Origin: Arthrobacter sp. Edens01
GTDB lineage: Bacteria; Actinomycetota; Actinomycetes; Actinomycetales; Micrococcaceae
Length of the DNA: 64,000 bases
Assembly (NCBI RefSeq): GCF_001307035.1
Contig: NZ_LKIU01000005.1
Span: 1,632,946-1,696,945 of the forward strand
Direction of reading: 5' to 3'
Shown in pieces: positions 5,799 through 51,350 of this stretch. Below the pieces are notes generated by a model. It did not search any database. It saw only the letters and a program-made list of their open reading frames with translations, and was not told the origin of the DNA. The translations under genes and the position numbers were made by a program. Within the stretch, counting starts at the first letter, position 1, and each line of letters starts with the position of its first letter.

Positions 5799-7019
5799 AT
5801 GCAGGATCTACGGCTCGTGGGTGTCCATGAGGGCGGCGAACATCTGCTGCTGAGCGGTCGGGGCGGCGAAACCTTCCGGCTCCGCATCGACGAAGCCCTG
5901 CGCGTTGCCGCTGCCCGTCCGGCACGGCGGGCCGGGCAGCCGGCTGAGCCGGACGCCGGACCAACCATGACCCCCCGTGATATCCAGGCCCGCATCCGTG
6001 CCGGAGCCAGCGCAGAGGACGTCGCTGAGCTCTCCGGACACGACCTCGCGCACATCCGCCGTTATGAAGGTCCAGTGCTTGCTGAGCGTGAGTACATTGC
6101 CCGCCAGGCACAGTCCGTAGAGGTTGCAGCTCCCATGTCCGCAGCGCAGGACAGCCACCGTTCAGCGTTTGGCGACTCCCCTGTGAGCCTCGGCGAAATG
6201 GTCAGCCACCGCCTGCGTGCCTTCGGTGTTGATCCCGAAACCGTGGTGTGGGACTCGTGGCGCCGCCCGGAAGGCTCCTGGGACGTCGTTGCCCGCTTCA
6301 GCCTGGCTGAGAACTCCCGCGTTTCCGTCGGCGAAGAACCTCCTGCCCGCTGGACCTACAGTCCGCTGCGCCGTCAGGTCACCAATTCAAACCGGTGGGC
6401 CCAGCTGCTCAGTGAACTCGCGCCCGTTGACTCCCCTGTGCCGGCCCGGAGGCTTTCCGCGGTGGCCGACCGCGTCTTCGACTTCGAAACGGATACGGCT
6501 CCCGAAGAGCCCGTTACCGTAAGCGAGGAGGAAACCGACGAGCTGCTGAACGTACTGCGCTCCCGCCGTGGACAGCGGCTTGGTACCGATGAAGAGGGCG
6601 ACGACGCATTGGCCGCCCTGCTCGCAAAAGGCAGCATCCCGGCCGCCCACCCGCGCGAAGGCCAGGCCGAACTCGAAGACGAGTCCGCACACCGGCCGCG
6701 CACCGGCAGGCTGAGCCTTGCCCCGGTACCCCCGGGCGGGGAAGAGGACGCGACGGACGCGCCAGACCCTGAGCCGGTTGCCGATCCGCTGCGCCTTGAC
6801 GAAGGAATCAGTACCTCAACCAAGGAGATCAGCATCCTGGCCAAGCCGCTGCGCGGCTCCCGGCCGGACAGCCAGTCCGCCCCGGAGAAGCCCGACGAAG
6901 ACCGTGGGGAAACCCCGGAACAGGCGGTCAAGGAACCGGTCACCGAACGCCGGATCAAGCCGAAACGCTCTTCCGTGCCCAGCTGGGACGAGATCGTCTT
7001 CGGCACCAAGGGCGATTAG
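5799..7019 (+). CDS. sepH: Septation protein SepH (DUF3071 family)
   Basis: SepH binds FtsZ and promotes its assembly at division septa in actinobacteria. The 406-aa protein starts MQDLRLVGVHEGGEHLLLSG, the conserved DUF3071 domain with its small helix-turn-helix (TMTPRDIQARIRAGASAEDV, about residues 60-85; then AREYIARQAQSVEV-like sequence to about 115). A second conserved block at about 128-210 (SLGEMVSHRLRAFGVDPETV, WDSWRRPEGSWDVVARF) is followed by a long acidic, disordered tail ending KRSSVPSWDEIVFG. The C-terminal WDEIVFG motif is typical of the family. The ATG at 5799 has GCGAGG 8 nt upstream. Confidence 0.93.
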   Translation: MQDLRLVGVHEGGEHLLLSGRGGETFRLRIDEALRVAAARPARRAGQPAEPDAGPTMTPRDIQARIRAGASAEDVAELSGHDLAHIRRYEGPVLAEREYIARQAQSVEVAAPMSAAQDSHRSAFGDSPVSLGEMVSHRLRAFGVDPETVVWDSWRRPEGSWDVVARFSLAENSRVSVGEEPPARWTYSPLRRQVTNSNRWAQLLSELAPVDSPVPARRLSAVADRVFDFETDTAPEEPVTVSEEETDELLNVLRSRRGQRLGTDEEGDDALAALLAKGSIPAAHPREGQAELEDESAHRPRTGRLSLAPVPPGGEEDATDAPDPEPVADPLRLDEGISTSTKEISILAKPLRGSRPDSQSAPEKPDEDRGETPEQAVKEPVTERRIKPKRSSVPSWDEIVFGTKGD

Positions 7020-42272: not shown

Positions 42273-42578
42273 ATGAACCTCACGCCAAAAGAAATCGACA
42301 AACTCTATGTCTACCAAGTGGCCGAGCTGGCCCGCAGGCGGCGGGACCGGGGAACCAAACTCAACGTCAGCGAAGCCATCGCCCTGATCTGCGAGGCAAT
42401 CCTGGAAGGCGCTAGGGACGGCAAAACGGTCGCTGAAGTGATGGAGCTTGGAAAGCACATCGTTTCCGAGAGCCAGTGCATGGACGGCGTCCGCGAGCGG
42501 CTGCCCCTGCTGCAGGTCGAAGCAACGTTCGTCGACGGCAGCAAGCTGGTCTCCTGCCACGATCCGATCGGGGTGTGA
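42273..42578 (+). CDS. ureA: Urease gamma subunit
   Basis: This 101-aa small subunit of the nickel enzyme urease has the typical size and sequence: MNLTPKEIDKLYVYQVAELA, LNVSEAIALICEAILEGARDGK, then GVRERLPLLQVEATFVDGSKLVS ending HDPIGV. It is the first gene of the operon ureA-cbiX-like-ureB-ureC-ureF-ureG-ureD-nickel transporter-urea transporter. The stop is followed after 1 nt by the start of the CbiX-like gene, which is inserted between ureA and ureB. Confidence 0.95.
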   Translation: MNLTPKEIDKLYVYQVAELARRRRDRGTKLNVSEAIALICEAILEGARDGKTVAEVMELGKHIVSESQCMDGVRERLPLLQVEATFVDGSKLVSCHDPIGV

Positions 42579-42579
42579 C

Positions 42580-43485
42580 TTGACCCGGCCCACGGAGCCG
42601 GATGCGACGGTAGTGCTGGTCGGAGGACACGAGAGCGGAAACGGCGAGGATCTGTGTTTCGTGCCGGATTTCCTGCCCGGGTCCCTTGTCACCCCCGCCG
42701 GTCGCCCCCTTCACAATCTGCTCACGCGGCTGCTTGGCCGCAGCAGGGATGCCGACGGCTCAGTTCCACAGCCGGTAGTGGTGCTTCCGATGACTTTCGG
42801 GCGCAATCCCACTCTTGTTGCCGACACAGCCAAGACGCTTCGATGGCTCGGCACCGGGGACAGCAACGGAGATGCCGCAGCACCGCTGGCGCTGGCCGAT
42901 GCCTTTGGAACGGGCGACCACCTCACAGCCTGGCTAAGGACAGCAGCCGTCGAAGTGCGCAGGCGGTCAGCGGAAGCGGCAATGCTGATTACTGCCGACG
43001 CCGCGAACCCGTTCGACGACGCCGAACTCTACCGCATCACCCACCTGGTGCGGACGCACGGAGCAGGCGTCCCCGTCGAGACGGCAGCTGCGGGCAGCGC
43101 GGCCGGGCTCCTGGAAGCGGTCCGGCGGCTCCGTCTGCTTGGAAGCAAACACACAATCGTCGTTCCGGCGGGCTTTCGCCGTACTCCGGTCGTTTCCTCA
43201 GAACTGGTGCCGTACGGCTCAGGCGATTTCTCCGACACTGAGTTCTACGGCGGACTGCTCAGTGAGAGGGCTGTGCTGCGGGTCATCGGCGAGCGTGTCC
43301 GCGACGCCCTTCACGCCCTCAGCCACGGCCGTACCGGCGTAGAAGCAGGGCTGCAGGCTGACCACGGCCACGGCTACGCCCATTCCCACGCATTTGAGGA
43401 GTCCGTCGGCCACTCCCATCCGCACAGTCACGGCACGGGCGCAAGCCATCCGCACAGCCACCCCGCCCCGATCGGCAGGAATTGA
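42580..43485 (+). CDS. CbiX/SirB-like protein with histidine-rich tail, inside the urease operon
   Basis: This 301-aa protein (TTG start at 42580 with GGGGTG upstream; GTG 42613 is another candidate) resembles sirohydrochlorin-type chelatases. It has an N-terminal [12 protein letters not shown] (His17), a paired second half ([40 protein letters not shown]) and a conserved [20 protein letters not shown]. The last 41 residues hold 11 His in GH/SH/PH pairs, like the tails of nickel chaperones. It sits between ureA and ureB and is coupled to both (1 nt after ureA; 59 bp before ureB). No ureE is in this operon, so a nickel-handling role is a reasonable inference; a tetrapyrrole role is not excluded. 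Confidence 0.8.
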
Positions 43486-43544: not shown

Positions 43545-43991
43545 ATGCTGGGCACCCCAAGTTATGACCATAAGCAAGAGGACATTGAGATAAACGCCGG
43601 CCGGCCAAGTGTCACCCTGCTGGTAAGCAACACCGGAGACCGCGCGGTGCAAATAGGCTCGCACTTCCACTTCTTCGAAACCAACAAGGCCCTGCTGTTC
43701 GAACGTGAACGCGCCTACGGAATGCATCTGGATCTTCCCGCAGGCACCGGCGTCCGGATCGAGGCGGGTGATACCAGGGAGGTAACCCTCACCGCCTACG
43801 CCGGAAACCGGCGCGTGATCGGCTTCAACAATCTCGTTGACGGCGGACTCGACGCAGCGGACACCAAAATCCGCGCCATGGAACGGATGCGGGAACTCGG
43901 GTTCCAGGACGGGAAGCCCACCACCAAACCAACTGCCGGTAATAAGGGCGGCGCAGGCAAAACCGGCGCCGCAAAAGAGGGGAAGAAGTGA
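43545..43991 (+). CDS. ureB: Urease beta subunit
   Basis: This 148-aa urease subunit has the core sequences [65 protein letters not shown] and [10 protein letters not shown]. It carries a C-terminal extension of about 25 residues rich in Gly, Ala and Lys ([21 protein letters not shown]) that is not part of the conserved fold. ATG 43545 has GGAAGGACAG upstream; a longer frame to 43482 lacks this. The stop overlaps the ureC start. Confidence 0.92.
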
Positions 43992-45715
43992 TGGCAAGGA
44001 TCCCGCGCAAACAGTACACCGACCTCTTTGGCCCGACTACCGGCGACCGGGTGCGCCTGGCGGACACCAATCTGGTAATCGAGATCGAGAAGGACTTCAA
44101 CGAAGGCCATTACGGCGATGAAGTTGTCTACGGCGGCGGCAAGACAGCCCGCGACGGCATGGCCGCAGATCCCCAGGCGACTTCCGCTGAGGGAGTCCTG
44201 GACCTGGTCATAACGAACGCCATCATCCTGGACCCGATTCTCGGAGTCGTTAAAGGCGACATCGGCATTCGCGACGGAAAGATAGCCGGGGTCGGCAAAT
44301 CCGGGAACCCGCACACCCAGAGCGGAGTCGACCCGCGCCTGATCGTTGGCCCAGGCACCGAACTCCTCGCCGGTGAACACTTCATCGCCACAGCCGGAGG
44401 CATCGACTCCCACGTGCACTACATCTCCCCCGAGCAGGCCCTGGCAGCGCTTTCAAACGGCATCACCACGCTTTTTGGGGGCGGCACGGGGCCGACGGAC
44501 GGTACTAACGGCGTTACAACCACCCCAGGCGTCTGGAATATAGCCACGATGCTTAGGTCCATCGAGGCGATGCCGGTCAACATGGGCATTCTTGGAAAGG
44601 GCAACGGATCACTGCCGGATGCATTGATCGAGCAGATCGAGGGCGGAGCGGCGGGACTCAAGGTCCATGAAGACTACGGTGCCACCCCGGCGGCACTAAG
44701 CAGGGCGCTCTCCGTTGCGGACGATTACGACGTCCAGATCTCGGTGCACACAGACAGCCTCAACGAGGCCGGATATGTAGAGAACACGCTGGACGCCATC
44801 GACGGCCGCACCATCCACACCTTCCACACCGAGGGCGCCGGCGGCGGGCACGCCCCGGACATCATCAAGGTGGCCGGCTACCCCAACGTGCTTCCGTCGT
44901 CAACGAACCCCACATTGCCTTACACGGCCAACTCCGTGGATGAGCTGCTGGACATGGTGATGGTCTGCCACCACCTCTCCCACGACATCCCCGAGGACGT
45001 CGCCTTTGCGGACTCGCGCGTCCGCGCCGAAACGATCTCGGCGGAGACCGTTTTCCACGACGAGGGCATCATCTCGATGGTGTCCTCCGATTCCCAGGCC
45101 ATGGGGCGCATCGGTGAATCCTTTATGCGCACCTTCCAAATTGCGCACCACTGCAAGGACCAGCGCGGCAAGCTGCCGGAAGACAGCGCGGACAATGACA
45201 ACTTCCGCGTGCTGCGGTTCCTTGCCAAGATCACCATCAACCCGGCCATCACCCAGGGTGTCTCCGATTACATCGGGTCACTGGAAGAGGGCAAAATGGC
45301 CGACATCGTGCTCTGGCCGATTCAGTCCTTCGCCGCCAAGCCGAGGCTGATCGTTAAGGGCGGCCTGATCAACTGGGCGCTGATGGGAGACCCGAACGCT
45401 TCGCTGCCCACCCCGCAGCCGGTGTTCTACCGGCCTATGTTCGGTGCCCAGGGCAAGGCGCTGCAGAGCACCAGGGCGACCTTTATGTCCAAGGCAGCCA
45501 TTGACAAGGGCGTGCCGGAAACGCTTGGCCTGGAGAGCCAGGTCCTGCCGGTGCACCGCTGCCGCGGCATCGGGAAGGAACATATGGTCCGCAACAATGC
45601 CACGCCGGATATCACGGTGGATCCGGAGACCTATGACGTGACCTATAACGGCACGCTGGCGAAGATACCCCCGGCGCAGTCCCTGCCGCTGACCCAGCTG
45701 TTCTTCCTGGCGTAG
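43991..45715 (+). CDS. ureC: Urease alpha subunit (catalytic)
   Basis: This 574-aa catalytic subunit hydrolyses urea to ammonia and carbamate at a dinickel centre. It has the nickel-bridging carbamylated lysine Lys224 (GLKVHEDYG), nickel ligands in SHVHYI (near 135) and [19 protein letters not shown] (near 255-280), and the active-site flap [15 protein letters not shown] (Cys326, His327). Its length is normal. It starts at ATG 43991, overlapping the ureB stop; GAGGGG lies 7 nt upstream. An alternative GTG at 43988 is one codon earlier. Confidence 0.97.
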
Positions 45716-45724
45716 GAACACAGG

Positions 45725-46414
45725 ATGTCGGACGTAAGGCAGCTGCTCACCAGCCTGCAGTTCGCGGACTCGGCCTTTCCCAGCGGGTTCTACACAATGT
45801 CACACGGACTCGAGGGCTACAGCCAGGCCCGCCTCGTCTCGCGCGGGGATGTGCAGCCCCTGCTGGCGGATCTGCTGCTGCACTCCGTTGGACCCGGGGA
45901 TGCAACGGCACTCGCCGCGGCACACCGCGCGGCGTCCGACGGCGACATCGAACTCGTTCAGGAAATCGACCAGCTTCTCTTCGCTTCCAAGCTGAACGCG
46001 GAAATGCGCACGACCTCCGTGCGCAGCGGTCACCAGCTGATCGATCTCGGTGCCGAGCTGATTGAGCAGCCACTGCTCGCTGAATACGGCGCCCGGGTAC
46101 GGAGCCGGGCCACCCCCGGTTGCCAGCCGGTCGCCTCGGCCGTGATTTATGCGGCCAACGGCGTGCAGACCCGGCAGGCCGTGGCCTCGGACCTGTTCGC
46201 CTTTTCGGCAAGCTTCGTTGGTGCCGCACTCCGCCTGCGGCTGACTGACCACCGGCATGCCCAGGCCGTCCTGCTGGAGACGGCTGGAGTGATGGAGCAG
46301 GCCACAGATGCCGCGCTTGAACGCGGCCTCGCTGACCTTGGCGGCTGCGTGCCGCTGGCCGATGTTATGTCCGCGCAGCACGAAAAAGCGGAGGCACGGC
46401 TCTTCGCCAGCTGA
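45725..46414 (+). CDS. ureF: Urease accessory protein UreF
   Basis: This 229-aa accessory protein helps load nickel into urease together with UreG and UreD. The sequence has the family start LLTSLQFADSAFPSGFYTMS HGLEG and a central helical region (QLLFASKLNAEMRTTSVRSG). It begins 9 nt after the ureC stop with CACAGG before the ATG. The gap to ureG is 81 bp. Confidence 0.92.
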   Translation: MSDVRQLLTSLQFADSAFPSGFYTMSHGLEGYSQARLVSRGDVQPLLADLLLHSVGPGDATALAAAHRAASDGDIELVQEIDQLLFASKLNAEMRTTSVRSGHQLIDLGAELIEQPLLAEYGARVRSRATPGCQPVASAVIYAANGVQTRQAVASDLFAFSASFVGAALRLRLTDHRHAQAVLLETAGVMEQATDAALERGLADLGGCVPLADVMSAQHEKAEARLFAS

Positions 46415-46495
46415 CGCGGGCAAACGAAGGAAGTTCGGGACGGCACCGGAAGGTGTACAGACCCAAAGATGCAGAACACCGGAAATGAGGAAGTT

Positions 46496-47131
46496 ATGAG
46501 CGAGAACGTGTTGAGGATCGGTATCGGCGGACCGGTAGGCAGCGGCAAGACTGCGCTGACGGAGGCCCTCGTCCCCCGGCTCATCGCGGCCGGCCGAACC
46601 CCGGGCGTCATCACTAACGATATCTACACCCAGGAGGACGCCCACCATGTCCGCCGGGAGCTGGACGGCATCCTGGACCCTGAGCGTGTCATGGGGGTCG
46701 AGACCGGTTCCTGCCCGCATACGGCCGTGCGGGATGATCCGACCATGAACCTGGCCGTCGGCGCCGAGATGCTGGAACGGTTCCCGGACATCGATACCCT
46801 CATCTACGAATCGGGCGGCGACAACCTGACCCTGACCTTTTCCCCGGCCCTGGCAGATGTGTTCGTGTTCGTGCTGGACACTGCCGAGGGCGAGAAAATG
46901 CCCCGCAAACGCGGACCGGGCATTACGGACAGCGACATCCTGGTGATCAACAAGATCGATATAGCGCAGTACGTACGCACGGACCTGGGCGTCATGGAGG
47001 CCGATGCGCACCGGGTACGCGAAGACAGGCCGGTGGTGCTGACCAACTCACTGACCGGGCAGGGGGTCGATGAGCTGTACCAGCAGATCATGACGCAGTG
47101 GAACGGTGCCAGAACCGAGCTCATCGGATGA
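46496..47131 (+). CDS. ureG: Urease accessory GTPase UreG
   Basis: This 211-aa SIMIBI GTPase delivers nickel to urease using GTP. The P-loop is GPVGSGKTAL (12-21), the nickel-binding CPH motif is Cys73-Pro74-His75 (ETGSCPHTAVRDD), and INKIDIAQYV gives guanine specificity. ATG 46496 follows GAGGAAGTT. The N-terminus has no His-rich extension. Its stop overlaps the ureD start (ATGA). Confidence 0.95.
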   Translation: MSENVLRIGIGGPVGSGKTALTEALVPRLIAAGRTPGVITNDIYTQEDAHHVRRELDGILDPERVMGVETGSCPHTAVRDDPTMNLAVGAEMLERFPDIDTLIYESGGDNLTLTFSPALADVFVFVLDTAEGEKMPRKRGPGITDSDILVINKIDIAQYVRTDLGVMEADAHRVREDRPVVLTNSLTGQGVDELYQQIMTQWNGARTELIG

Positions 47132-48177
47132 CGGTCAAAGCCGCGGAACCGGAAAGCACCGCTGGCCCCCGGCTGAGTCCGGCCCCTCAGAAGCCGGCTC
47201 CCCAGGCCGGAGGCCGGCCCCCGAGCACGGGCGGTTACCGGCTCGAACCGGCGTACTACGAAGCGGTCCGGGTGCCGGAGGAAGTGCTGCGCCACGCGGG
47301 CTCACCGCGCAGCCTGCCCGTCGGCAGCCCGGGCAAGGTCGGCGTGCTGCAGCTTGGCTTCGACCGCAACCGCGGCCGGACCGAACTGGTGGAGCATTAC
47401 CAGAAGTCCCCGCTGCAGATCATGCATCCGCTGTACTTCAATCTGCTGCGCCCCGACATGCCCTACACCTACCTGATGTCGTCCGGCGGAGGCATCCTGC
47501 AGGGAGACCGGCAGCGCACCGACCTGCGGTTCAGTGCCGGAACGTCGGCGCACGTGACCACCCAGGCCCATACCCGGATCTACCGCATGGACTATGGGTA
47601 CGCGACCGCCGTCGTCAACATCGCGGCTGAAGAAGATGCCTATGTGGAGTACCTGCCGGACCCGGTTGTGCCCTTCGCGGATTCGCGTTTCTACCAGCAG
47701 ACGTCGGTGGTGCTGGACGAGTCCGCGACGCTGCTGCTGGGCGAGACCGTCTACGCCGGCCGGCTGGCGCGGGGTGAGCGGCACGCCTATGACGTATATG
47801 CCTCAGACTTTGAGGTACGTCGTCCCGACGGCCGGCTGGTAGCCCTGGACAGGGTGCGGCTCTGTCCCGGGGACGGGGAAGACGGCCGCGGCGTAAACGG
47901 ATTGGGTGTGCTGGCGGGCCACGATGTGCTCGCTATGCTCTACGTCTTCACTCCCCTCGTTCCCCCGGCGCAACTGGCAGACTCGCTGTCCCGGGCAGTT
48001 CGCGAAAGCGGGGGTGACCTGATCTTCGGGGTGAGCACCCTGCCCGGCGATACCGGCGTGTGGATGCGGCTGCTTGGCAACGACACTGTGGCCGTGGCGG
48101 CCGCGAACACAGCAGCTGCATCCGCCATGCATGAGCTGCTGACCGGGAAGCAGGCTCCCCTTATTCGGAAGAACTAG
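47128..48177 (+). CDS. ureD: Urease accessory protein UreD/UreH
   Basis: This 349-aa scaffold protein binds urease apoprotein and the UreF-UreG complex during nickel insertion. It has the conserved segments GVLQLGFDRNRGRTELVEHY, IMHPLYFNLLRPDMPYTYLMS, GGGILQGDRQRTDLRFSAGTSAHVTTQAHTRIY and SRFYQQTSVVLDESATLLLGE. The ATG overlaps the ureG stop by 4 bp. It contains an N-terminal Pro-rich stretch of about 40 residues before the conserved fold. Confidence 0.92.
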   Translation: MTVKAAEPESTAGPRLSPAPQKPAPQAGGRPPSTGGYRLEPAYYEAVRVPEEVLRHAGSPRSLPVGSPGKVGVLQLGFDRNRGRTELVEHYQKSPLQIMHPLYFNLLRPDMPYTYLMSSGGGILQGDRQRTDLRFSAGTSAHVTTQAHTRIYRMDYGYATAVVNIAAEEDAYVEYLPDPVVPFADSRFYQQTSVVLDESATLLLGETVYAGRLARGERHAYDVYASDFEVRRPDGRLVALDRVRLCPGDGEDGRGVNGLGVLAGHDVLAMLYVFTPLVPPAQLADSLSRAVRESGGDLIFGVSTLPGDTGVWMRLLGNDTVAVAAANTAAASAMHELLTGKQAPLIRKN

Positions 48178-48191
48178 GAAGGGGTCTGACC

Positions 48192-49388
48192 GTGCGTGGA
48201 CAAAGCGTTACGCAGACGGCGACGGCAAGGCCGCAGCACTCCTACCGGGCGCAGGTAGTTCTCGCCTTCATACCCGTCGTGCTCCTGCACGTCGCGGGGT
48301 TCGGACTGTTCTTCTTCCTGGTGGAACCGCTGCACCTGCAGCTTGGATCCTCCGTCTTTGGTGTCGGCATTGCCGTGGTGGCCTATGTGCTTGGCGTGAG
48401 GCACGCCTTCGACGCCGACCACATTGCCGCCATTGACAACACGACCCGCAAGCTCGTTGACCTGCGCCGGCCCGCCGCCGGCGTCGGCCTGTTCTTTTCA
48501 CTGGGGCACTCCACGATCGTCTTTCTCATGGCGGCACTGCTGGCACTCGGAGTGAGCTGGGCGGTGGGCCTGAGCGATGACGGCAACGAGGTCCGCAATG
48601 GCCTGGGCGTTTTCGGCACGCTCGTGTCCGGAGTCTTCCTGCTGCTGATCGGGCTCATCAACGCCGTCGCCTTTCTCGGAATCCTGAAGGTCTGGCGGGC
48701 TTCACGCAACGGAGAGCTGGACCAGGTGGAGCTGGAACGCCACCTTCAGGGTCGCGGGTTCATCACCCGGATCCTGCGGCCGCTGCTGAAGACGATCGAC
48801 CGGCCGGGCAAGATGTACGCGGTCGGGTTCCTATTCGGGCTGGGTTTTGACACCGCCAGTGAGATTGCACTGCTGGTGCTCGCCGGAACCGGAGCCGCGA
48901 CCGGGCTGCCCTGGTACGCCATCCTCTGCCTGCCGCTCATCTTCGCGGCCGGCATGAGCCTGTTCGACACACTCGACTCGGCCGTGATGGTCCGTGCCTA
49001 CGGCTGGGCCAGCGTCAACGCGATCCGCAAGGTTTACTACAACCTGACCATCACCGGGCTCTCCGTGATGATTGCGGTCATCATCGGCGGCATTGAGCTC
49101 GTAGGCCTGCTGAACGAGAAGCTTGGCCTCCAGGATCCCCTCACCGGGTGGGTGGCCGGCATCGACCTGGAGAACGTGGGGTACATCATCGTGGGCACCC
49201 TGGTCCTGGTCTGGCTAATCTCCACCGCCTACTGGAAGTTTGGGAGGGTGGAGGAGCGGTGGGCCCTGCCGGGCCCCGGGCCCGGGGGCGCCGTGCCCGG
49301 TGAGGGTGCATCACCGGCAGCCAGACCCGGAAAAACACCCGGGCAGGGCCGGCCGCCGAACACACCCGCGGGAGAGGACAGGATATGA
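48192..49388 (+). CDS. NiCoT-family nickel/cobalt permease
   Basis: This 398-aa transporter of the HoxN/NixA family has the metal signature RHAFDADHIAAIDN (HX4DH: His71, Asp76, His77), FSLGHSTIVF and LGFDTASEIALL, and about eight transmembrane helices. It imports Ni2+ for urease maturation. The GTG start has GAAGGGG upstream, and the 3' end overlaps the urea transporter by 4 bp (ATGA). Residues after about 355 form a Pro/Gly-rich tail outside the membrane domain. Confidence 0.92.
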   Translation: MRGQSVTQTATARPQHSYRAQVVLAFIPVVLLHVAGFGLFFFLVEPLHLQLGSSVFGVGIAVVAYVLGVRHAFDADHIAAIDNTTRKLVDLRRPAAGVGLFFSLGHSTIVFLMAALLALGVSWAVGLSDDGNEVRNGLGVFGTLVSGVFLLLIGLINAVAFLGILKVWRASRNGELDQVELERHLQGRGFITRILRPLLKTIDRPGKMYAVGFLFGLGFDTASEIALLVLAGTGAATGLPWYAILCLPLIFAAGMSLFDTLDSAVMVRAYGWASVNAIRKVYYNLTITGLSVMIAVIIGGIELVGLLNEKLGLQDPLTGWVAGIDLENVGYIIVGTLVLVWLISTAYWKFGRVEERWALPGPGPGGAVPGEGASPAARPGKTPGQGRPPNTPAGEDRI

Positions 49389-50314
49389 GCAGCGTAGGCG
49401 CAACCGCCCCGCATCCTGCCATCCCAGCCGCAGGCTGGCTCAAAGGCTGGTGCCAGGGGCTCTCACAGATCTTCTTCCAGAGCAACGTCTTCACAGCGCT
49501 GCTGATACTGGCCGCCTTTGCCGTCGCGGACTGGCGCATGGCGTTGCTGGTCCTCATTGGCGCTGCAGGCAACACGGTGACCGGACGGCTGATCGGAGCT
49601 GACTCCTCCTCGGTCACGGCGGGCATGCAGGGTTTCTGCGGGGCCCTGGTCGGAGCGGCAACCTTTGCGGCCATCGGAGGCCAGTGGGCGGCCTACCCGA
49701 TCGCCCTGATCGGCGGTGCTCTCTGCGCTCCCGTGATCTGGCTGGTGAACGCGCTCTTCACGAAGACCCCGCTGAGGATCTACGGACTGCCCTCGACCAC
49801 AGCGCCGTTCTGCATCGTGGCCACGATCATCCTGTTCAGTACCGAGGCGCTGCATGTAAGCGCGCCGACGTCGGCCACCATCGATTCGGCGCCGTTGGCC
49901 TTCGTCCGCTCACTGCTGACGAATGTGTCCGAGGTAGTCCTCATCAACAACGAATGGTCCGGCGCGCTGATTCTGCTGGGCCTGTTCGTGGCGAGCTGGA
50001 AGGTTGGCCTGGCCGGCCTGCTCGGCAGTGTGGTTGGCAGCCTGTGCGCACTGGCGCTCGGTGAAGCACTGACCGAGACGGCCAACGGCCTGGCCGGTTA
50101 CTCCGGCGTGCTGACCGCCATCGCACTGGCCGTCGTGTTCCTCCGCAGCAGCACGATCTCATGGGTGCTTGCAACCATTGGAACGGCGGTGACAGCGGTG
50201 GTGACCCTGCTGATGCATGAGATCGCCGCGCCCACCTACACATGGCCGTACATCCTCACCACCTGGGTGTTCCTGATAATCGCCCACTACATTCCCGCAG
50301 CGAAGCGTCCCTAG
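49385..50314 (+). CDS. Urea transporter (UT family)
   Basis: This 309-aa membrane channel brings urea into the cell for the urease encoded upstream. It has the two repeated halves of UT-type transporters, with conserved QIFFQSNVFTALLILAAF (about 28-45) and GLPSTTAPFCIVATIILF (about 138-155), and ten or so membrane helices. It starts at ATG 49385 overlapping the nickel permease. It is the last gene of the urease operon and converges on crcB. Confidence 0.9.
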   Translation: MSSVGATAPHPAIPAAGWLKGWCQGLSQIFFQSNVFTALLILAAFAVADWRMALLVLIGAAGNTVTGRLIGADSSSVTAGMQGFCGALVGAATFAAIGGQWAAYPIALIGGALCAPVIWLVNALFTKTPLRIYGLPSTTAPFCIVATIILFSTEALHVSAPTSATIDSAPLAFVRSLLTNVSEVVLINNEWSGALILLGLFVASWKVGLAGLLGSVVGSLCALALGEALTETANGLAGYSGVLTAIALAVVFLRSSTISWVLATIGTAVTAVVTLLMHEIAAPTYTWPYILTTWVFLIIAHYIPAAKRP

Positions 50315-50340: not shown

Positions 50341-50718
50341 CTAGATGGAAGCGCCGATCCACAGCCCAAGGACCGCTGCTACCACTGAGAGCAGCAGCAT
50401 CACGACGCCGCTGATGAACGAAGCCCCGTAGCGGCCCTTTTTGATGAGCTGCACGGTCTCGTAGCTCGCCGTGCTGAAGGTCGTATAACCGCCAAGGAAT
50501 CCGGTACCGATGACGATGCTGACGTCGGTGGGTACAAAATGCTCGACGGTGAGGCCGGTGAGAAAACCAAGCACGAGGGAACCGGAGACGTTGATGATCG
50601 TCGTCGCCCAGGCAAACTGCGTCTTGGAGTGGGCACGGATGAATCCGTCCAGCATAAACCGCACAGTGGCGCCCACGCCGCCGGCCAGGGCCAGCAACAG
50701 GAAGATTCCGGGGGTCAT
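50341..50718 (-). CDS. crcB: CrcB/Fluc fluoride channel (second of pair)
   Basis: This 125-aa four-helix protein exports fluoride as a dimeric channel. Family motifs are GGVGATVRFMLDG (14-26), WATTIINVSGSLVLGFLTG (37-56) and GTGFLGGYTTFSTASYE (72-88). It overlaps the first crcB by 4 bp. Two different subunits suggest an antiparallel heterodimer. No fluoride riboswitch was recognised upstream. Confidence 0.92.
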   Translation of the reverse strand: MTPGIFLLLALAGGVGATVRFMLDGFIRAHSKTQFAWATTIINVSGSLVLGFLTGLTVEHFVPTDVSIVIGTGFLGGYTTFSTASYETVQLIKKGRYGASFISGVVMLLLSVVAAVLGLWIGASI

Positions 50719-51170
50719 GTCGCATCCTCCTGTTCATCCCTGCGCGGGCCAGGGGCACGGTTGTTGACGGCGGTCGCAATCGCGATGCCCGCCCAGGTGG
50801 CGCAGGCACCCACAATCACCGTGGCCAGCGCGTAAACCACCGCGGATCCCGGGAGCCCGTCGCGGAAAAGCACGGCGGTGTCGGTGGCCAGCGAGCTGTA
50901 GGTGGTGAAGCCGCCGCAGAACCCGGTGCCCAGCAGGAGCTTGAGGTTCGCGCCGGTGGGCCGCGCCTTGTCCAGGCGCGTAACGGCTTCGTAGAGGTAG
51001 CCGAGCAGGAAGGCGCCGATCACGTTGATGATCGGGATCGCGATCGGGACTTCGCCGAGGTTCGGGATGACGAGCGACAGGCCCTCGCGGCTTGCTGCGC
51101 CGGCTCCGCCGCCAACGAAGACCAGCCCGATGGCTGCCCAGCGCAGGTACGGCGCGCGGGTGCCGCTCAT
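50715..51170 (-). CDS. crcB: CrcB/Fluc fluoride channel (first of pair)
   Basis: This 151-aa homologue of the downstream gene begins MSGTRAPYLRW and has GGGAGAASREGLS, VIGAFLLGYLYEAVTR and GTGFCGGFTTYSSLATD. Such paired genes form heteromeric fluoride channels in Gram-positive bacteria. I chose ATG 51170; the longer frame to 51224 contains no better signal. The 3' end overlaps the second crcB gene by 4 bp. Confidence 0.9.
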   Translation of the reverse strand: MSGTRAPYLRWAAIGLVFVGGGAGAASREGLSLVIPNLGEVPIAIPIINVIGAFLLGYLYEAVTRLDKARPTGANLKLLLGTGFCGGFTTYSSLATDTAVLFRDGLPGSAVVYALATVIVGACATWAGIAIATAVNNRAPGPRRDEQEDAT

Positions 51171-51350
51171 TTTGCCGTCCGATCCCGGGCCGCACCGGCC
51201 CCGCCGGTGACGGTCCGCAGCCAACTGGAATTAGAGTCCATTCTTGAACGCTACGCCTGCGTACCGGCTGGCTCAATCAAGCAGACCGCCGGAAACGCCC
51301 GGACGGAGGAATCCCTCCCGCCAGGAAGAGGTCCCTCCCTCCGGTTCCGC

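Follow-up and report, generated by a model that had tools for sequence, protein, structure and literature searches.

A histidine-rich protein with a predicted class II chelatase fold, encoded between ureA and ureB in actinobacterial urease operons, is a candidate nickel-delivery factor

Bacteria that lack the chaperone UreE raise the question of how urease obtains its nickel. Haas et al. (2009, PMC2770081) reported that UreG bears a histidine stretch in ureE-less genomes, with two exceptions, Frankia CcI3 and Bradyrhizobium japonicum, for which they suggested HypB. Helicobacter pylori handles nickel for its urease with His-rich proteins (PMC4671568). HypA/HypB and the His-rich Hpn proteins belong here. 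His-rich regions also occur on chelatases: CbiXL carries one, for which metal storage and delivery were proposed, and its deletion left cobalt insertion unaffected (PMC7689651). The related chelatase SirB holds its metal through His10, Glu43, and His76, of which Glu43 is not conserved even among CfbA proteins, and both SirB and CfbA are able to use Ni2+ (PMC11301274). Here we describe a protein that shares features with several of these systems.

The window (the whole 64,000-nucleotide stretch of Arthrobacter sp. Edens01 DNA that was analyzed) contains a urease operon in which a 301-residue protein, referred to below as X, is encoded between ureA and ureB (Table 1). Annotation with Pfam and NCBIfam gave the gene order ureA, X, ureB, ureC, ureF, ureG, ureD, NiCoT permease, urea transporter, in agreement with the first-pass annotation of this DNA; ureF and ureD were matched by Pfam and unmatched by NCBIfam. 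The X reading frame opens with TTG, one base past the ureA stop codon, and is confirmed as a real gene. Its dN/dS is 0.20 against the Arthrobacter citreus protein (L007) and 0.18–0.31 against four further relatives, the two most distant of which have dS above 1.5, near saturation, so that X looks to be under selection. X diverges far faster than UreC (80% versus 99% identity between the window and L007), and its core may therefore be weakly constrained. The 11 His residues previously noted in the last 41 were recovered by counting, and they make up 11 of the 19 His residues in the protein (hypergeometric P 2.8e-6). From residue 265 the tail resembles a disordered end in the structural model.

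Table 1. Features of the urease operon in the window
Feature	Position in window	Strand	Evidence or remark
ureA, urease gamma subunit	42273..42578	+	PF00547 E 2.5e-40
X, class II chelatase-fold protein (predicted) with His-rich C-terminal tail, 301 aa	42580..43485	+	
His17-Glu18 codons of the X GHES motif	42628..42633	+	placed by eye at the chelatase GHG His
13-residue tail-root codons of X	43357..43395	+	unchanged in 12/13 A1 rows; altered in distant A3 rows
X His-rich tail	43360..43482	+	11 His in 41 residues; model confidence <50 from residue 265
ureB, urease beta subunit	43545..43991	+	PF00699 E 5.5e-39; likely ATG start, judged from the sequence; ORF opens at 43482
ureC, urease alpha subunit	43988..45715	+	PF00449 E 1.6e-48; TIGR01792
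ureF	45725..46414	+	PF01730 E 4.3e-33
ureG	46496..47131	+	TIGR00101 E 2.2e-72; likely start MSENVL; ORF opens at 46469
ureD	47098..48177	+	PF01774 E 1.3e-52
NiCoT permease (NicT)	48192..49388	+	PF03824 E 1e-88; NF052500 451.7 bits, cut-off 450
Urea transporter	49385..50314	+	PF03253 E 1.3e-60

X had been described as CbiX/SirB-like, and this description holds for its fold and ancestry rather than for its family membership. No Pfam or NCBIfam family names the X of the window, which has no match to PF01903 (CbiX) at E ≤1. Among six relatives, three gave PF01903 scores of 15.0, 19.2, and 21.2 bits (at E ≤10), below the curated Pfam cut-off of 22 bits by which we defined membership of the CbiX family; X thus falls short of that cut-off. 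Searches of the PDB were equally unrevealing: phmmer with X found nothing relevant (best E 0.71, a chitinase), and the profile of the 17-row alignment A3 gave an unrelated best match at E 0.36 and a sirohydrochlorin cobaltochelatase only at E 6.6. The predicted structure of X is nevertheless of the two-lobed class II chelatase type seen in SirB, CbiK, and ferrochelatase, and when the A3 profile was compared with ten CbiX-like proteins by hhalign, the two aligned over 189 columns with a probability of 98.9 and 20% identity. The A2 profile of X also reached CbiX-like genes, with E values down to 2.7e-11 per genome, and ten of its 25 weak loci were scanned, all ten with PF01903; as the ten CbiX-like proteins came from the A2 search, the hhalign comparison and this search are not independent. 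The significant profile match suggests that X is homologous to CbiX.

X differs from these chelatases at the positions that bind metal in SirB. The GHES motif of X has His17 in 16 of the 17 A3 rows (Arg in L108) and Glu18 in all 17, and His17 was matched by eye to His10 of SirB, outside the hhalign range. His76 of SirB is, we assume, the histidine of the CbiX GHAKGDIP motif; in the 20%-identity alignment all 17 rows of X have Thr, Val, Ala, or Glu at the corresponding position, and residues 66–92 contain no His in 16 of 17. The position aligned with Glu43 is Glu in none of the 17 rows, although the match to the CbiX motif is presumed and the local alignment poor; position 38 is Glu in none. 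By alignment, X therefore appears to have no counterpart to two of the three residues that bind metal in SirB. X shares with CbiXL the His-rich C-terminal extension and lacks the other mark of that protein, the Fe-S CxxC, which is absent from all 17 X rows and present in 6 of the 10 CbiX-like rows. The family scans, the sub-threshold PF01903 scores, and the ligand alignment together led us to reject the view of X as an ordinary CbiX/SirB protein. Two residues of X, Arg75 and His114, are invariant in all 17 rows and match no SirB ligand; they could form a new site that binds a metal or a partner. Among the CbiX-like proteins, those of L130 and L132 (genomes G435 and G420, family f47) are PF01903 proteins that have CxxC and lack the N-terminal GHGT motif present in six other CbiX-like rows, and they perhaps represent another noncatalytic branch.

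These comparisons bear on the possibility that X is an active tetrapyrrole chelatase, inserting Fe, Co, or Ni into sirohydrochlorin, and lies in a urease operon by chance. The predicted chelatase fold would suit such an enzyme, as would the nickel use of SirB and CfbA (PMC11301274), and the genome of the window has no CbiX-family gene over the cut-off, its one weak CbiX match scoring 13.9 bits (E 0.16). The missing His and Glu residues and the replacement of His17 in L108 speak against it, however, another X genome (G652) has a separate weak CbiX-like match in addition to X, and tetrapyrrole synthesis leaves the fixed place in the urease operon unexplained. We regard an active chelatase as highly improbable and infer that the X core has probably lost tetrapyrrole chelatase activity.

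A scan of genome contigs, the sole source for organisms outside the class and one that picks up close relatives, found 13 X loci. X is present in 5 of the 347 genomes sampled from the order, that of the window included, and in 15 of 29 genomes of the genus. In a sample of 394 genomes from the class, 33 gave matches; five of these, again with that of the window among them, are X, and the others are CbiX-type weak matches where checked. Two X genes are on plasmid records, from Embleya and Streptomyces. After removal of duplicates there were 32 distinct X proteins, counting that of the window, which excludes an insertion peculiar to this genome. The order ureA-X-ureB is found at 30 of the 32 distinct loci; of the two that fall outside the count, one (L014) ends within X, and the other (L169) has remnants of ureA and ureC. 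The latter, on the Embleya plasmid at 6867–8475, is a degenerate urease locus in which X and ureB are intact, ureA is cut to its two ends, and ureC is cut to its first residues. X thus keeps its place from Arthrobacter to Streptomyces relatives. In the genus, ureC is present in 24 of 29 genomes, as a lower-scoring type in 15, as another type in 20, and as both in 11, and X adjoins the lower-scoring type in all 15 genomes that have it.

A slot fixed between ureA and ureB, while ureF, ureG, and ureD come after ureC, might be expected of a scaffold that holds UreA and UreB together or guides the docking of UreD, UreF, and UreG, with the tail of secondary importance. We consider this role quite unlikely, because a scaffold has no need of a His-rich end and the last 60 residues of X contain 11–22 His in all 17 aligned rows, that of the window included.

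The first-pass annotation had seen no ureE in the operon and had proposed that X replaces UreE as a nickel store or chaperone, a proposal to be refuted, by its own account, by a ureE elsewhere in the genome that urease needs. In the whole genome, UreE_N had no match at E ≤1; in 14 control genomes, the family scored over the cut-off in two, Corynebacterium glutamicum and Haloferax volcanii. X itself has no Pfam match to UreE_N (PF02814). UreE was found in none of 18 X genomes, and a second set (18 X genomes and the two X plasmid records) gave none either, the two weak matches being in genomes without X. Among the 97 genomes of the order sample with ureC, X occurs in 5 and UreE over the cut-off in 21, never together, but about one meeting is expected by chance, which makes this a weak test. 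From each of the 96 such genomes other than that of the window we retrieved the region around the best ureC hit, which omits second copies such as the UreE-linked one of G148, and found X in 4, UreE in 20, and neither in 72. As most of these urease stretches have neither gene, the absence of UreE says little by itself, and we rejected the stand-alone argument that X must replace UreE because UreE is missing. The survey for mutual exclusion of X and ureE that had been suggested thus gave a clean pattern, but one that amounts to nearly a single historical event per state.

The informative partner is UreG, whose His-rich end is lacking in the company of X or UreE. We counted His before and after the G domain of UreG rather than over whole reading frames. 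At least 3 His after core position 190 were found in 0 of 4 stretches with X, 0 of 20 with UreE, and 51 of 63 with neither; the 63 are those of the 72 that showed ureG, and the other nine comprise six of a distant UreC group (L119–L124) and three whose contig or stretch is short (L063, L093, and L096). The remaining 12 of the 63 carry 3–8 His within the 40 residues preceding the G domain, a count that is noisy because it takes in frame upstream of the likely start and that reaches 5 in X and UreE operons. The UreG of the window is His-rich at neither terminus. No His-rich UreG tail was found at any of 11 X loci from genome contigs that have ureG, one of which (L006) apparently comes from the same genome as an order-sample row (L114), or seen at five further X loci. 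Set beside the report of Haas et al. (2009), the X operons are a further class that lacks both UreE and the His stretch of UreG, and in which X itself bears such a stretch. The genus of the window also has a second urease operon (L177–L185), with neither X nor UreE in all nine fetched stretches; its UreG has a His-rich C-terminal tail (of the DPGPMAPHFHADEDGG... type) in eight, and the ninth ureG is split.

Of 36 X genomes, six of which look like duplicates as judged by identical X, two (G062 and G652) have HypA over the cut-off. HypA/HypB and Hpn are not known to be related to X in fold.

The exclusion among X, UreE, and neither could also be mere inheritance, with old urease lineages differing in several ways and X taking no part in nickel delivery. 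In a quick tree of 117 UreC rows, with long branches flagged, X occupies one side of a branch with a support of 100 and UreE likewise with a support of 96, and the three labels together need two changes. Because each state is close to one UreC lineage, the covariation counts as roughly one event per state, a point in favor of inheritance. Against this, X looks selected and has kept its position in relatives ranging from Arthrobacter to Streptomyces. In addition, a long-branched locus without X (L116), which joins next to the X clade with a support of 90, has a UreG that is His-rich ahead of its G domain, as would be expected if the His stretch had passed from UreG to X. We therefore think inheritance without function extremely unlikely.

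The absence of a His-rich UreG tail beside X suggests that X has taken over a task, and we judge it likely that X is a dedicated urease accessory protein that delivers nickel in place of UreE or of the UreG His stretch. In building on computed features (the gene and its predicted fold, the gene order, the lack of UreE matches and of a His-rich UreG end, and the conserved tail root), this reading would run as follows. Ni2+ taken up by the NiCoT permease of the operon would be bound by the His-rich tail of X, which would hold it near nascent urease and hand it to tail-less UreG; UreG, UreF, and UreD would then load UreC. X would in this way do the task that UreE, or the UreG His stretch, does elsewhere. 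A nickel store or chaperone in place of UreE, as first proposed, is thus the best-supported reading, favored by the fixed gene order, the lack of UreE matches, and the rarity of HypA, whereas the absence of ureE taken alone carries little weight. The fast divergence of X, the alteration of the tail root in distant relatives, the presence of HypA in G062 and G652, the roughly single event behind each state of the covariation, and the unaffected cobalt insertion by CbiXL without its His region count against a nickel helper.

In another reading, X would buffer nickel or store it for detoxification, in step with expression of urease and the NiCoT permease and with no direct hand-over to UreG. The tail is long and variable in length and a nickel importer adjoins, as a buffer would allow. 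The root of the tail, on the other hand, although altered in Streptomyces-type relatives, does not vary among 12 of the 13 core-group rows (alignment A1), which is more conservation than a mere buffer seems to need, and UreG lacks its His-rich tail where X stands. A buffer is, in our estimation, unlikely, and we retain delivery to UreG as the preferred reading. There is about an even chance that X represents a third nickel route to urease, besides UreE and the His-stretch UreG, in which a class II chelatase formerly acting on tetrapyrroles has retained a metal-handling core and a His-rich tail and now serves an entire lineage of actinobacterial ureases as metallochaperone.

X would resemble UreE in binding nickel and supplying it to UreG, and both are encoded in urease operons; it differs in its predicted chelatase fold and in its position, since in the UreE operons that were fetched ureE comes after ureC. 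The likeness to UreG with a His stretch (PMC2770081) lies in a His-rich end where UreE is missing, whereas in X operons a distinct protein of predicted chelatase fold bears the stretch and UreG has none. From CbiXL, SirB, and CfbA, with which it shares the predicted fold, X is set apart by its score below the Pfam cut-off and its urease context. X is a named candidate for nickel supply in such UreE-less operons, and its candidacy predicts that chelatases without catalytic residues can act as protein metallochaperones.

A search of the open-access literature, which included PMC7055735, found no paper on X, and the accessible portions of three papers that mention CbiX and urease (PMC2667541, PMC7689651, and PMC4531530) yielded no description of it. 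The last of these, on Frankia, reports CbiX, UreG, and HypAB in all its genomes, although its table gives no HypB for two (PMC4531530). A transcriptome of Arthrobacter sp. Helios, of the citreus group, describes two urease gene sets; in one of these, ArtHe_04130 encodes the gamma subunit and ArtHe_04140 the beta subunit, and ArtHe_04135 goes unmentioned in the main text (PMC9608346). By gene numbering, this gap is the place where X would lie.

Three minor features of the window were also recorded. UreB has a C-terminal extension of 26 Lys/Gly/Ala-rich residues past its Pfam domain (43911–43988). Within ureC, on the minus strand at 44155–44447, there is a match to the Rfam family 5_ureB_sRNA (RF02514; 56.5 bits, cut-off 40), which is probably due to conservation of the urease coding sequence and not to an sRNA. 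Beyond the urea transporter gene, the minus strand at 50341–51224 encodes two adjoining small proteins that we take to resemble a CrcB fluoride-channel pair.
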